In this document: one piece after another, positions 17,692-23,048 of the stretch | How the letters are laid out: every line of letters begins with the position of its first letter | Position numbering within the stretch: position 1 is the stretch's first letter | Assembly (NCBI RefSeq): GCF_009908265.2 | Contig: NZ_JAAATX020000007.1 | Coordinates: forward strand, 124,001-188,000 | Direction of reading: 5' to 3' | Length of the DNA: 64,000 nt | DNA from: Paragemmobacter amnigenus | Lineage (GTDB): Bacteria; Pseudomonadota; Alphaproteobacteria; Rhodobacterales; Rhodobacteraceae | The notes under the pieces: model-generated | What the model saw: only the letters and a program-made list of their open reading frames with translations | Databases searched by the model: none | What the model was told of the DNA's origin: nothing | Translations under genes and position numbers: made by a program

Positions 17692-19521
17692 TCAGCCGTC
17701 AACCGACTGCTTTGCCTTCATTTCTTCATACTTCGCACGCGCCGCGCGCACCGTTTCCCGCTCTGACACTTCGGGGACGCCCACGTCCCACCAGGTCCCG
17801 CCCGCCGCCGTGGACGGGCCGGGATCGGTGTCGATCACGATGACCGAAGGCACCTGCCCGCCGCGCATTGCGGTGATCGTCGCCTCCAGTTCGGCGACGG
17901 AGCCTGCCTTGACCGCCCGCGCGCCCATGCTGGCGGCGTGGGCGACAAAGTCGATGGCCGAGGGGTTCACGTGCCATGCGTCGTCCAGCAGGTTGTTGAA
18001 GGGCGCGCCGCCGGTGTGTTTCTGCAGGCGGTTGATGCAGCCGTAACCGCGGTTGTCGGTGATGACGACGGTGAAGGGCACGCCCATCATCACGGCGGTC
18101 GCCAACTCGCTGTTGGCCATCATGTAGGACCCGTCGCCCACCATGCAGACCACATCCGCATCGGGACGCGCCATCTTGATGCCCAAGGCCCCCGCGATTT
18201 CATAGCCCATGCAGGAAAAGCCGTATTCCATGTGATAGCCGCCCTGCGCGGCATCCCAGATCTTGTGCAACTCGCCCGGCATGGTGCCGGCCGCGCCCAT
18301 CACGATGGTGGCCGGAGTAGAGGAGCGCTGCACCGCGCCGATCACCTGCATGTCGGTGGGAAGCTGGTTGCCCGACGCGGGGGCGGCCTTCACCGCGGCC
18401 TTGGCGGCGGCCCAGTCAGATTTCAGCGCGGCATCTGGCGCGGCAAAGCGCAGGCCTTTCATCCCCGCGCCCAGTTTTTCCAGCGCGACCCTGGCATCTG
18501 CCACAAGGCTCATCGCACCATGCTTGCCCGCGTCATAGGCCTGCACGTTGATCGCAAGGATGCGCCGCGCGGGGTTCTTGAACAGCGACCACGAGCCGGT
18601 GGTGAAATCCTGAAACCGCGTGCCGAGGCCGATCACCAGATCCGCCCCCTCGCAGACGATATTGGCGGAGGAGGAGCCGGTGACGCCGACAGGTCCGAAA
18701 TTCTGTTCGTGGTCATGGGCCAGCGCGGATTTGCCGGCCTGCGTTTCCACCACCGGAATCCCGTGTTCGGTGGCAAAGGCGGCCAGCGCGGCCTCGGCCT
18801 CCGAATAGATCACGCCACCCCCCGCTACGATGACGGGCTGTTTTGCGGCGCGGATCGCTGCGATGGCGGCCTGAAGCTCTGCCTGATCCGGCTCGGGCCG
18901 GCGGATGCGCCAAACCTTGGGGGTGAAGAAGGATTCGGGGTAGTCATAGGCTTCGGCCTGCACGTCCTGACAGAAGGCCAGCGTGACGGGGCCGCATTCC
19001 GCAGGGTCCGTCATCACACGCAGGGCGCGGGGCAGCGCGGTCAGGATGTGTTCGGGCCGCGTGATGCGGTCGAAATAGCGGCTGACGGGGCGGAAGCAGT
19101 CATTGGCGCTAACCGTACCATCCGCGAAATCCTCGACCTGTTGCAGGACCGGATCGGGGGCGCGGTTGGCGAAGACATCGCCGGGGATGATGAGCAGCGG
19201 CAGGCGGTTGACATAGGCCAGCGCGGCGGCGGTCACCACATTGGTGGCGCCCGGGCCGATGGAGGTGGTCACCGCCATGGCCTTTTGCCGCTTCATCGCC
19301 TTGGCATAGGCGATGGCGGTATGGGCCATGGTCTGTTCGTTGTGCCCGCGCCATGTGGGGAAGACATCGCGCGCGCCATGCAGCGCCTCGCCCAGACCCG
19401 CCACGTTGCCGTGGCCGAAGATGGCCCAGATGCCTTCGATGAAGCGGGTGCCGTCCTCGGCCTGCTGGTTGGCAAGCCAGCGGACCATGGCCTGCGCGGC
19501 GGTGAGACGGATCGTTGTCAT
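17692..19521 (-). CDS. iolD: 3D-(3,5/4)-trihydroxycyclohexane-1,2-dione hydrolase IolD
   Basis: A 609-residue thiamine-diphosphate enzyme that opens the cyclohexanedione ring to 5-deoxy-glucuronate. The N-terminal domain has the ThDP glutamate region ([14 protein letters not shown] near 30), the middle domain ends near 350, and the C-terminal domain has the GDGS...N ThDP/magnesium motif ([20 protein letters not shown], about 458-477). Length is as in the family. It overlaps iolC by 4 bases (ATGA-type junction) and precedes iolE by 15 bases, consistent with one coupled operon. Confidence 0.96.
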
Positions 19522-21437
19522 GCGGCGATATCCTTCTTGGCGCGAGCCTCGTCCCAGATGGCGCAGAGGCGGCTGTAACGGTCCGCCATCATGGCGACGG
19601 CGGCATCATCGGAAATCTGGCCTGCCAGCCAGCCACGGGCGGCATCGGCAAAGATCGTGCGCCCCACGGCAAAGCCTTTCACCAGATCGTGCCGCGCGGC
19701 AAGCGCGAGCGAGGCGGCAAGCTGATCCTCCGGCGCGTCGAGACCCAGCACGACGATGCCGCGCACATGCGGGTCGTTGCGGGTGATGGCGGCGCAGGCA
19801 TTTGTCCATGCGGCGTCGGTGGCGAAGGGTTCCAGCTTCCACCAGTCGGGGAAGATGCCGAGGTCATAGAACCGCTGTATCACCAAGGCCGAGGTCATGT
19901 CGTCCACCGGCGCGACCTTGGAGGGGATGATTTCCAGCAGCATTTCCAGCCGGTTGCGGCGGCAGGCGTGGAACAGGCGGGTGACCGTTTCCTCTTGCCG
20001 GGCCTTGGTCGCGGCATCGTCATCGGGATGGTAGAAGCACAACACCTTGACCACATGTTCCAGCGGCCATTCCGACAGGCCGCCGAAATCGGGCCCGATT
20101 TCCGGTTCCAGCGTCAGCGGGCGCGAGCCGGGCCATTCGACGGGCCGCCCGATCCACAGACCGGTTCCCGCGGCGGCATAAAGCGCATGGCGGCCAAGGC
20201 GCGAGTCGCAGAGGATGCCGTGGCCCGGCCGGCCGTCCGCGACGGTCAGGGCGGCGGTCAGGCAGAGTTCCTTGAAGGCGCCGATCTTCGCAGGCGTGGC
20301 GCCGTCCATCTGTTCCAGCTGCATGCGGTGGTCGAAGGCGAAGACCCGCATCGTGGACCAGTCCTTGTGGCGGTTCGTCGCCCAGTGGACCTGTTCCAGT
20401 GCCGCATCCTTGCGCAGCGCCTTTTCGACGACGCCGCGTTGCAGGAAGAACTGCAGCTCTTCCCATGAAGGATAGGCGGGGGTGCAGCCGTGGCGCGACA
20501 CGGCGAAGGCCCCGCAGGCATTGGCGTATTTCAGCGCGATAGGCCAAGGTTCGCCGTCCAGCCAGCCCTTCAGCAGGCCGGACATGAAGCCGTCGCCCGC
20601 GCCAAGGACGTTGAACACCTCGATCGGGAAGCCGGGGCCGGTTTCGCCCTCGTCAAGGCTGTCGGGGATCGCGCCGGTGAAGGCGACCGCGCCCATCGGG
20701 CCGCGTTTGCATACGAGCGTGGCCTTGCTGACGGCGCGGACGGCGCGCAGGGCGGCGATGGTGTCGGTGCTGCCGCCGGCGATGTGGAATTCCTCTTCCG
20801 TGCCGACGATCAGGTCGAAGAAATGCAGCGTCGATTGCAGTTTCGCCGTGACGGCGGCAGATTCGATAAAGCGGTTTTCGCCATCGCCATGGCCCGACAG
20901 GCCCCAGAGGTTCGGGCGATAGTCAATGTCCAGCGCGGTTTGCAGACCGTGCTTGCGGGCCAGTGTCAGGGCCTTCAGCACCGCGGCCTCAGTCCGGGGA
21001 TGCGAAAGGTGCGTGCCGGTGGCGACGACCGACCGCGCGCTGGCGATGAAGGCTTCGTCGATGTCGTCTTCGCACAGCGCCATGTCGGCGCAGTTCTCGC
21101 GGTAGAAGATCAGGGGAAACTGCTTCTCGTCGCGGATGCCCAGCAGGACGAGGGCGGTCAGGCGTTCGGGGTCTGTCCTGACGCCGCGCACATCGACGCC
21201 TTCGCGCGCCAGTTCCTCGCGGATGAAGCGGCCCATATGCTCGTCGCCCACACGGGTAATGAGCGCCGATTTCAGGCCAAGACGCGCGGTGCCTGCCGCC
21301 ATGTTGGTCGGGCTGCCGCCGATATATTTCTGGAAGGAGCCCATATCCTCCAGCCGGCCGCCCACCTGCGCGCCGTAGAGGTCGACCGAGGAGCGGCCAA
21401 TGGTGATGACGTCGAGCGTCTTGGCGGAGTGGGACAC
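19518..21437 (-). CDS. iolC: Fused 5-dehydro-2-deoxygluconokinase and DUF2090 aldolase-like protein
   Basis: A 639-residue two-domain protein. Residues about 10-320 are a PfkB-type sugar kinase (ITIGRSSVDLYG near the start, VLGAGDGFMSGLLKGWL near 290 with the catalytic aspartate) that phosphorylates 2-deoxy-5-keto-gluconate. Residues about 345-635 are a DUF2090 domain (MRVFAFDHRMQLEQM, then EIGPDFGG and RHDLVKGFAVGRTIF), thought to supply the next, aldolase step. The fusion is usual in alphaproteobacteria and makes a separate iolJ unnecessary. The start is a GTG at 21437, with GGAGGAGAG 4 bases upstream; an in-frame ATG at 21491 overlaps the operator and is less likely. It is the first gene of the iol operon. 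Confidence 0.93.
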   Translation of the reverse strand: MSHSAKTLDVITIGRSSVDLYGAQVGGRLEDMGSFQKYIGGSPTNMAAGTARLGLKSALITRVGDEHMGRFIREELAREGVDVRGVRTDPERLTALVLLGIRDEKQFPLIFYRENCADMALCEDDIDEAFIASARSVVATGTHLSHPRTEAAVLKALTLARKHGLQTALDIDYRPNLWGLSGHGDGENRFIESAAVTAKLQSTLHFFDLIVGTEEEFHIAGGSTDTIAALRAVRAVSKATLVCKRGPMGAVAFTGAIPDSLDEGETGPGFPIEVFNVLGAGDGFMSGLLKGWLDGEPWPIALKYANACGAFAVSRHGCTPAYPSWEELQFFLQRGVVEKALRKDAALEQVHWATNRHKDWSTMRVFAFDHRMQLEQMDGATPAKIGAFKELCLTAALTVADGRPGHGILCDSRLGRHALYAAAGTGLWIGRPVEWPGSRPLTLEPEIGPDFGGLSEWPLEHVVKVLCFYHPDDDAATKARQEETVTRLFHACRRNRLEMLLEIIPSKVAPVDDMTSALVIQRFYDLGIFPDWWKLEPFATDAAWTNACAAITRNDPHVRGIVVLGLDAPEDQLAASLALAARHDLVKGFAVGRTIFADAARGWLAGQISDDAAVAMMADRYSRLCAIWDEARAKKDIAA

Positions 21438-21495
21438 CGTTCTCTCCTCCGGTTCCTCCACGCGATGGCGCGGAGATTCGGTTCTGTTCATATTT

Positions 21496-21549: not shown

Positions 21550-22359
21550 CTATCCGCGCGCCGAACCCACGGCCACGGCCAGCGCGATCGACAGGGCCAG
21601 TGTCGCGGACAGCGAGCGGAAGGCACCGAAGTCGACCTCGGGCACGGTCAGCACCGTGCTGGACAAGCGGGCGAGCGGGCTTGTCAGGCGGTCGGTGATG
21701 CCGATCACAGGCAGTCCGCGCGTCTGGGCATCCTGTGCCAGAGCAAGGGTTTCGTCGGAATAGGGGGCGAAGGTGATCGCGATACATGCATCCCCGGCGC
21801 GCAAGGCATGGCGGTGGTCCAGCTTTCCGGTGCCGTCGTGCAGCATGGCCGGAACCTGCATCTTCTCGAAGACATAGGTCAGATAGCTGGCAACGGGATA
21901 GGCGCGCCGCAGGCCAACGACATGCAGCGTCCCCGCATCCGTCAGTTGCGCCACAGCCTGTGAAAGTGCGGCCTCGTCGACCGATTTCGCCAATTGCTCC
22001 AGCGACAGACGCCCCGCCTCGACGAATTCCGCAAGCAGGGCTGCGGGGCTTCCTGCGCCGTTTTCCTTCAGGTTGCTCAGGCGGGTGGAATAGTCCGGCC
22101 AGCCGGGCGCATAGGCATCGCGAAAAAGCTTCTGCATTTCGGAAAAGCCGGAAAACCCGAGGATCTGGCAAAAGCGCATCAGTGCCGAGGGCGGCACGTC
22201 CGCCCCTGCGGCCAGTTCGGCGACGGTCGAGACAGCGATGCGGTCGGTATTCGCGGCGATGTAGTCAGCGCATTGGCGCAGGCGTTTGGGCAGGGCATCG
22301 GTCACGTCGGCCAGACGGTTGCGGAAATCCTCGATGGTGGCGGGGGGCGTGACGGTCAT
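21550..22359 (-). CDS. iolR: MurR/RpiR family regulator of inositol genes (IolR-like)
   Basis: A 269-residue transcription factor. The N-terminal helix-turn-helix of the RpiR type (about 25-75: VSTVAELAAGADVPPSALMRFCQILGFSGFSEMQKLF) is followed by a SIS sugar-phosphate-binding domain (about 120-250, with LHVVGLRRAYPVASYL, GDACIAITFAPYSDET and LPVIGITDR). RpiR proteins sense a sugar phosphate, and in iol systems this is an inositol-pathway intermediate. The ATG at 22359 has AAGGGA upstream; the open frame extends much further but through the hairpin array. It lies just before iolC on the same strand, and palindromes GGAA-N6-TTCC precede both genes, so it probably represses the operon and itself. 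Confidence 0.88.
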   Translation of the reverse strand: MTVTPPATIEDFRNRLADVTDALPKRLRQCADYIAANTDRIAVSTVAELAAGADVPPSALMRFCQILGFSGFSEMQKLFRDAYAPGWPDYSTRLSNLKENGAGSPAALLAEFVEAGRLSLEQLAKSVDEAALSQAVAQLTDAGTLHVVGLRRAYPVASYLTYVFEKMQVPAMLHDGTGKLDHRHALRAGDACIAITFAPYSDETLALAQDAQTRGLPVIGITDRLTSPLARLSSTVLTVPEVDFGAFRSLSATLALSIALAVAVGSARG

Positions 22360-22394
22360 GATGTCCCTTCGGTTTCCAAGGGAAGCTAGCAGCG

Positions 22395-22410
22395 TGGAAC
22401 GAATATTCCA
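22395..22410. promoter_or_regulatory. Operator-like palindrome upstream of the RpiR-type regulator
   Basis: TGGAAC-GAAT-ATTCCA shares 5 + 6 arm positions with the palindrome before iolC and fits GGAA-N6-TTCC. It lies 36 bases upstream of the regulator's start, and a further half site TGGAA follows at 22419. The match points to self-regulation. Confidence 0.7.
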
Positions 22411-22423
22411 ACCATTTGTGGAA

Positions 22424-22534
22424 CGCGATGTCTGACGCAGACATCGCGCCGGAATTTCGCGCAAATTCCGGGCGCCCGGCAGATCATGCGGTTTCTGCGC
22501 CAGAAACCGCCGCGAAATCTGCGTCAGATTTCGC
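22424..22534. repeat. Array of four consecutive hairpins
   Basis: Four inverted repeats stand head to tail: 22424-22448, 22449-22471, 22488-22510 and 22512-22534. Stems are 9-11 base pairs with loops of 3-5 bases. Three of them obey GCG-N3-TCTG-N3-CAGA-N3-CGC. The variable stem triplets ATG, GTT and AAA are each matched by CAT, AAC and TTT on the other arm, so the stem is conserved by compensating change. The second (CCGGAATTT / AAATTCCGG) differs. The last overlaps the stop codon of the carbonic anhydrase gene. None is followed by a T-run, so simple terminators are unlikely; palindromic REP-like repeats are the best description. Confidence 0.8.
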
Positions 22535-23048
22535 TGACGCGCAGGCCCGCGCGAAACCGCAGCGCATTGGCGCGGTAGCCTGCGGCGGATTTCAACAGCC
22601 GATCCCGCGCTGCTTCGTCCAGTTCGCGGATCACTTTGCCGGGGCTGCCCATGACGAGCGATCCGTCGGGGATCTCTTTCCCCTCGGTCACCAGCGCGCA
22701 AGCACCGATCAGGCAGCCGCGCCCGATCCTCGCCCCGTTCAGGATCGTGGCGCCCATGCCGATCAGCGACCCCGCGCCGATCGTGCAGCCATGCAGCATG
22801 GCCTTGTGGCCGATGGTGCAATCCGGCCCGATCACCAGAGGATAGCCCATGTCGGTGTGCAGCACGCAGTTTTCCTGCACGTTGGACCCTGCGCCGATGC
22901 GGATCTCCTCGTTATCGCCGCGCAGCGTCGCGCCGAACCAGACCGAGGCGCCCGCCTCAACCACCACGCGGCCGATGATGTTGGCATCGGGGGCGATCCA
23001 TGCGTCGGGGTGGATCTCGGGCGTGATGCCGTCGAGGGAATAGATCAT
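22524..23048 (-). CDS. Gamma-class carbonic anhydrase family protein
   Basis: A 174-residue left-handed beta-helix protein, mostly hexapeptide repeats ([LIV]GxxxxI type) between residues 10 and 140, expected to form a trimer. Metal-binding histidines appear in [28 protein letters not shown]. The family includes carbonic anhydrases and the YrdA/PaaY group, and not all members are active enzymes. It overlaps gmk by 4 bases and is the last gene of the yicC-gmk unit. Its stop codon lies inside the fourth hairpin of the downstream array. Confidence 0.9.

Follow-up and report, generated by a model that had tools for sequence, protein, structure and literature searches.

REP-like four-hairpin elements with variable stems and a conserved loop core form a genus-wide family in Paragemmobacter that is very probably under selection for pairing

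Hairpins sharing the loop core TGACGCA make up a REP-like family that extends across the genus Paragemmobacter and is, with high probability, under selection for base pairing. Beyond what the original prediction had described, the element is a unit of four hairpins, two of left type followed by two of right type (LLRR), with a conserved loop core and a position at the 3' ends of genes. It has long been asked whether the REP-like repeats of bacteria are selfish DNA or features that the host maintains, and the TGACGCA family makes the question testable, as its members persist at orthologous sites, change their stems in pairs, keep their loops fixed and in one lineage (here designated G010) seem to have lost their maintenance. 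A comparison of G010 with its sister lineage G002 could expose a factor that reads the loop.

The four hairpins and their neighbourhood

The window, i.e. the whole 64,000-nt stretch of the Paragemmobacter amnigenus contig NZ_JAAATX020000007.1 that was analysed, was predicted to carry four inverted repeats between a carbonic anhydrase gene and an iol regulator, and these are present at 22425-22534, within the following neighbourhood:

19518-21491: iolC-like fused kinase gene, adjoining the HexR-like regulator gene
21550-22359, minus strand: HexR-like regulator, downstream of the element (NF008451, 62.3 bits, below the cut-off of 296)
22395-22410, no strand: palindrome TGGAACGAATATTCCA, between the element and the regulator start, upstream of the regulator
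22425-22447, no strand: hairpin 1, left type, loop core TGACGCA, stem GCGATGTC
22449-22471, no strand: hairpin 2 (CCGGAATTTCGCGCAAATTCCGG), left position, stem CCGGAATT, loop core mutated to TCGCGCA
22472-22487, no strand: 16-nt spacer between the two halves, differing between copies in length and sequence
22488-22510, no strand: hairpin 3, right type, loop core TGCGCCA (a variant of TGCGTCA), stem GCGGTTTC
22512-22534, no strand: hairpin 4, right type, loop core TGCGTCA, stem GCGAAATC, containing the carbonic anhydrase stop codon
22524-23048, minus strand: gamma-carbonic-anhydrase-like gene, upstream of the element (NF050158, 167.8 bits, below the model cut-off of 250)

HexR is a regulator of the RpiR kind. 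Hairpins 1, 3 and 4 follow the pattern GCG-N3-TCTG-N3-CAGA-N3-CGC exactly, with the triplets ATG/CAT, GTT/AAC and AAA/TTT as claimed, and hairpin 2 is a fourth family member with a different stem and a mutated loop. The four do not lie end to end throughout, as had been supposed, since the spacer parts hairpins 2 and 3. The expected overlap of the last hairpin with the carbonic anhydrase gene was found: hairpin 4 forms the last codons and the TGA stop of that gene, the TGA lying inside its TGACGCA loop on the minus strand. Against Rfam, the best of 11 matches with E of 10 or less scored 25.8 bits where its gathering score is 268, and all the others fell short of theirs as well. The 15-nt core GGAACGAATATTCCA of the palindrome upstream of the regulator is kept in 16 of 17 orthologous loci, and the palindrome is probably an operator or promoter element.

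A dispersed family with a fixed architecture

The strict pattern occurs at 47 sites in the 4.14-Mb genome, compared with none for the reversed control, and its free triplets are complementary at 44 of these, a match that chance would produce once in 64 at each site. Of the three exceptions (L017, L018 and L026), the last is without an adjoining family hairpin and looks like a chance match. By this test the array is not a coincidence: allowing up to two mismatches, the window holds six matches against 0.82 expected, and none of 100 shuffles reached six. Comparing intergenic with coding DNA, for which the gene caller was retrained, placed none of the 42 clusters of this genome inside a gene.

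Across 33 regions and the window, the actual unit is ~110 bp long and consists of two TGACGCA-loop hairpins, a variable spacer and two TGCGTCA-loop hairpins. When a cluster was defined as at least two typed hairpins, a rule that excludes L025, L026 and L158 of the 42 own loci, 248 clusters were counted; they lie in 226 of the 251 loci, a set with some overlaps, and 127 of the 248 were LLRR. Within a half, hairpins are spaced 24 nt apart in 237 of the 254 half-elements of LLRR units, and the middle distance ranges widely. A right loop precedes a left loop only once among the 25 commonest patterns, which comprise 245 of the 248 clusters.

An extra central hairpin in the spacer gave a weak signal (72 spacers, mean z -0.69, 15 below -1.5). 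A kissing interaction or long-range stem between the loops of hairpins 1 and 4 was rejected as a conserved trait, as no covariation was seen and 44 of 80 were complementary compared with 46.3 after shuffling. An apparent avoidance of equal stems within an element was likewise discarded, having mostly disappeared once elements were aligned by polarity, which indicates that shared ancestry explains most of it; after this alignment, equality of hairpins 3 and 4 was depleted (0 against 5.1 expected) and that of hairpins 1 and 3 slightly enriched (25 against 17.9).

Two further arrangements were observed. In P. straminiformis, six right halves of the element follow one another in steps of 83 bp in the array L105 (2381-2884). 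A motif, TTGTGCCCTGTTTTGTGCC..TTTTGTGC.GC, recurs near elements of G002 (in the flanks of L240, L242, L246, L247, L248 and L232) and is possibly another repeat family. No account of the TGACGCA-loop family, nor of four of its sequence strings, was found in the literature searched, most subscription journals lying outside it.

Conservation of loops and pairing

In an alignment (A1) of 48 half-elements from the P. amnigenus genome, the invariant letters lie in or beside the loop core, with the addition of one G of the outer stem. Standard pairs fill 98.4% of the 940 pair cells compared with 79.6% after shuffling, slid registers coming nowhere near; 15 of the 20 pairs have changed on both sides and G-U accounts for 4 of the 940 cells. 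As these half-elements had been selected by loop type and by pairing at 8 of 10, the A1 figures overstate both pairing and loop conservation. The core TG-N3-CA is present in 101 of 102 well-paired hairpins near the own strict sites, 77 of them reading exactly TGACGCA or TGCGTCA, a count in which part of the core is dictated by the strict pattern. Hairpins found by the loop core alone have non-pairing stem positions at 9 of 770 (G000), 10 of 392 (G002), 1 of 490 (G014), 10 of 371 (G006) and 0 of 182 (G008), i.e. 0 to 2.7% in these five genomes. The loop core and its orientation, and not the stem, are the conserved sequence of the element.

Paired change at orthologous sites

The carbonic anhydrase/regulator locus was found, at least in part, in all 19 genomes of the genus, and of the 17 species in whose genomes both genes are readable, 12 carry the element and five do not. 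On the flanking-gene tree, the absences comprise the clade G009/G015/G016 together with G003 and G010; the latter two are sisters of carriers with a support of 0.99 or more, and their nesting beside carriers leads us to read these two absences as losses. Stems differ among the 12 orthologous copies, most of whose hairpins are still paired; decay has affected the G012 copy and one half of the G017 copy.

Flanking sequences yield 32 orthologous groups over 178 elements, and for 25 of the 42 own elements an orthologue was found among the relatives sampled. A count restricted to LLRR pairs (102 of the 269 supported by flanks) and to hairpins with 3-nt loops (378 of 408) gave 266 two-sided against 69 one-sided pair differences in the 378 hairpin comparisons. 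L063, a duplicate of L132, was left out of the ortholog, stop-codon and flank counts and of the 177 elements placed by gene context below, and kept, where it qualified, in the initial gene-context, equal-stem and polarity counts. The closest species pair, G006/G018, shows no two-sided and seven one-sided differences in 38 hairpins, and G008/G014 shows two and none, respectively. The G006/G018 result, few as its events are, with seven differences in a single pair, suggests that mismatches precede the restoration of pairing, the order expected under selection; the G008/G014 counts go against it. Flips of A-T/T-A or G-C/C-G, which cannot pass through G-U, make up about half of the two-sided changes (142 of 266), so some replacement of whole hairpins by other copies probably contributes.

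Judged from the sequences, pairing is kept by more than copying, because orthologous copies differ in stem yet mostly stay paired. The clade G009/G015/G016, at the loci seen, keeps the loops and the LLRR order with stem types of its own. The original prediction had offered selection for a folded unit or expansion by REP-like copying, and both halves were borne out, by orthologous stems that differ while remaining paired and by a REP-like dispersed family, respectively.

Distribution across the genus and the family Rhodobacteraceae

A covariance model of the half-element matches all 19 genus genomes on both strands, with at least 2 to at least 140 matches each. The lowest number, at least two, belongs to G004, a genome of 1.5 Mb that may represent a reduced lineage or a misplacement. 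The strict pattern is found in 18 of the 19 genus genomes and in one of 42 others, where the single match looks like chance. Scanning named genomes with the pattern yielded 53 stretches, every one under a Rhodobacter, Gemmobacter, Tabrizicola or Rhodobacteraceae title, and the named carriers P. kunshanensis, P. ruber and P. straminiformis are placed in Paragemmobacter. Outside the genus, model matches at E up to 1e-4 occur in at least 17 of 246 genomes of the family.

Ten of these out-of-genus loci (L111-L120) were viewed: nine carry two to four hairpins with a period of 23-24 nt, and L119 carries a single hairpin. The arrays, from other Rhodobacteraceae genera, mostly have other loops, with related cores in L111, L112 and L113. 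The P. amnigenus genome itself also contains tandem AT-rich hairpins with self-complementary TTCGAA loops and a period of ~22 bp (L322-L327), several of them shortly after gene stops; the TTCGAA-loop pattern, with up to two mismatches, was matched in 18 of the 19 genus genomes.

Decay of the hairpins in lineage G010

The model has at least 19 matches in G010 compared with at least 107 in its sister G002. Among 14 G010 hairpins found by the loop core alone, pairing fails at 13 of 98 stem positions, in contrast to the 0 to 2.7% of the five other genomes, and the choice of G010 loci by model matches biases this count against finding decay. The sites of six G002 elements that have orthologues in other species were traced in G010 through the flanking sequence, and none held an intact element, in a lookup that covered ~330 nt past the left flank and that for L234, L244 and L243 used the left flank. 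One element was decayed, a second had shrunk to a mismatched hairpin with a TTCGAA-loop array behind it, one was replaced by GTAGGATGGGC hairpins and one site had a GGTGGGC/GCCCATCC hairpin; of the remaining two sites, one was without any hairpin and one had other DNA. In the same genome, both TTCGAA-loop hairpins seen and six of eight GTAG half-sites are perfect. Since TGACGCA hairpins decay there while most of the other hairpins seen are perfect, pairing does not look automatic and would seem tied to some feature specific to the TGACGCA family. At the window locus, inspection by eye of the G010 junction, which lacks the element, gave no clear target-site duplication, the mark expected of a MITE, at this one locus.

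Placement at gene ends and a possible role as punctuation

Gene context was assigned with a gene caller that was made for this analysis and retrained, and whose start positions are approximate. Of 177 elements, 81 lie between unidirectional, 71 between convergent and 22 between divergent genes, three are at sequence edges and none is inside a gene. A stop codon is located at -11 to +15 nt from the element edge in 126 of the 177, the other 51 having none in that range. Among 223 distances to gene 3' ends, 27 put the stop in the TGA of the loop, 58 are at -1, 0 or +1, and three are below -11. In the P. amnigenus genome, 17 convergent, 20 unidirectional and 5 divergent elements, set against 10, 38 and 10 gene pairs of these kinds in the window, represent an enrichment of convergent positions (P 0.0003).

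We put at about even the chance that the element would serve as gene-end punctuation that is read through its loop. A putative trans-acting factor would read the loop core in its hairpin form, and the element would act independently of orientation, either ending or shielding the transcripts of a single gene or of a convergent pair; if the factor, or the need for it, was lost in G010, that would account for the hairpin decay there. Several observations count against this reading: the absence of the element from G003 and G010 shows that it is dispensable at a site, 51 of the 177 elements have no stop codon in the range given above, about half of the two-sided changes are flips, and, as detailed below, the sense-strand test for RNA is ambiguous and RNA folds often prefer long-range pairing. 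A broader version is tentative and on balance doubtful, namely a loop-coded gene-end system in which four-hairpin marks with free stems stand at dozens of 3' ends and would be read through a clade-specific loop by a trans factor. Its extension to G010, whereby loss of the factor would let the marks decay and other hairpins, including GTAG REPs, take some gene ends, is possible and on balance doubtful; that the tandem arrays with other loops in other Rhodobacteraceae could be parallel versions is a suggestion to be held just as loosely.

Alternative explanations

A selfish, REPIN-like element, in which the hairpins, as single-stranded DNA ends, would be bound by a putative transposase and copies would stay perfect since only mobilisable ones could spread or overwrite old ones, appears unlikely. 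The inverted, paired layout does resemble REPIN doublets, and the restriction to the genus with differences in copy number, the mixture of stem types and the identical left half of L022 and L023 all fit such an origin. The G010 decay is what transposase loss would lead one to expect, and many two-sided flips are what replacement of copies would yield. However, no match to Y1_Tnp (PF01797) exceeded the cut-off in any of the 19 genus genomes, which went against the suggestion that REP-associated tyrosine transposase (RAYT) genes might be found, for a profile that also missed the RAYT of G005. The single PF01797 match below the cut-off, in G008, is a RAYT linked to GTAG repeats. When the G008 RAYT was compared by tblastn with the collected loci, only L310, L292 and L297 were matched, all of them GTAG loci, with no such gene beside the collected TGACGCA copies, and a RAYT is likely absent from the genome of the window. 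In the list for that genome, moreover, no pair of halves was, by eye, far enough apart to flank a gene, and copies are shared at orthologous sites with stems that differ between them.

The RAYT that was found belongs to a separate hairpin family, GTAGGATGGGC..GCCCATCCTAC, which has a RAYT adjacent at L310 1203-1734 (G008) and at L292 and L297 (G005, one place). The 153-aa G008 protein beside it matches NF047646, a REP-associated tyrosine transposase, at 1.9e-44, with a homologue at the G005 GTAG locus. Forward matches to GTAGGATGGGC number 58 in G005, 35 in G008, 57 in G010, 14 in G002 and 5 in G000; G014 has a single reverse match, and 13 genomes lack matches. This family and its RAYT are an ordinary GTAG REP/RAYT system, in contrast to the genus-wide TGACGCA family.

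A host function at the level of DNA, in which cruciforms or single-stranded hairpins would, for example, bind a topoisomerase or nucleoid protein between converging genes, is unlikely on present evidence. Escherichia coli BIMEs bind topoisomerase or nucleoid protein between converging genes, and the convergent enrichment agrees with such a function, as does element polarity, which shows no relation to transcription (24 the same, 28 opposite). Folding lends some support, although by itself it is ambiguous: the DNA minimum of the window copy consists of four local hairpins, whereas the RNA minimum pairs hairpins 1 and 4, and all four local hairpins are the predicted minimum for 37 of 104 elements as DNA and 7 of 104 as RNA. 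Were an RNA strand selected, the sense strand should tolerate G-U more readily than A-C. Unidirectional sites show no significant preference of this kind (21 to 16 across all ten pairs, with P 0.51, and 9 to 8 across the inner nine). At convergent sites, where each half was read from the nearer gene, the ratio is 20 to 4 (6 to 2 over the inner nine), an excess that lies mostly in the outermost pair and is confounded, as the reading direction coincides there with the half orientation of the element. With both kinds of site taken together, P is 0.01 for all ten pairs and 0.42 for the inner nine. Mismatches in orthologous hairpins (G-U 23, A-C 23, other 23), for which the strand read is arbitrary, are silent on RNA versus DNA. 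Against a DNA-level function, the ten-pair G-U count leans towards RNA, the tight placement at stop codons is more easily explained by a role in transcripts, and there is no known binding protein.

An intrinsic terminator, of the classical or the hairpin-cluster kind, would overlap with the punctuation reading and is quite unlikely. The position after stop codons suits it, and hairpin clusters without a U-run have been proposed as terminators in the available part of PMC8355165. The window copy, however, lacks a T-run, as the original prediction had noted: neither a terminator-like site nor the G+C-rich stem with T-run that marks an intrinsic terminator was found in 22200-22800, the inner stems are AT-rich, and the L020 copy follows, by eye, an apparent terminator of its own.

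Neutral perfection of palindromes by template switching during replication, a mechanism documented in the part of PMC8794818 available, could keep pairing without selection and would accord with the few G-U pairs (4 of 940 cells) and the many flips, but is very improbable, as all seven changes in the closest species pair are one-sided, loop orientation is kept although switching can invert loops, and TGACGCA hairpins decay in G010 while TTCGAA hairpins and six of eight GTAG half-sites are perfect.

Comparison with known systems

With the hairpin clusters proposed as terminators, the element that we favour as gene-end punctuation shares several short hairpins no more than 15 nt apart, closeness to the stop codon and independence of a U-run; in the available part of PMC8355165, those clusters are predicted individual sites, without a family-wide loop core or strict orientation.

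GTAG REPs and REPINs, as described in the accessible portions of PMC3733652 and PMC3116915, are similar in being short extragenic palindromes in inverted pairs, with many copies, at gene 3' ends, and in being able to supply a stop codon. The inverted organization of GTAG REP doublets is shared (LLRR), whereas the conserved stems of such doublets are missing. The GTAG tag or its complement was found in none of the 208 outer 8-nt flanks of LLRR elements, in which no column exceeds 62% of one letter. The TGACGCA family differs further in its varying stems with a constant loop, its four hairpins per unit and its persistence at orthologous sites.

CGTC REPs, according to the available part of PMC3733652, carry a terminal unpaired CGTC tag, stems of 8-9 bp starting with A/T, loops of 4-5 nt and a CCA-like tail. 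In the same outer flanks of LLRR elements, CGTC occurs in 1 of 208 and its complement in 4 of 208. In that portion of PMC3733652, the CGTC REPs resemble the TGACGCA family in being alphaproteobacterial, in having no dedicated transposase found, in forming frequent dimers of unlike units and in lying near gene 3' ends. The TGACGCA family is set apart from them by a conserved, unpaired loop of 3 nt and by stems that mostly start with GCG or CCG.
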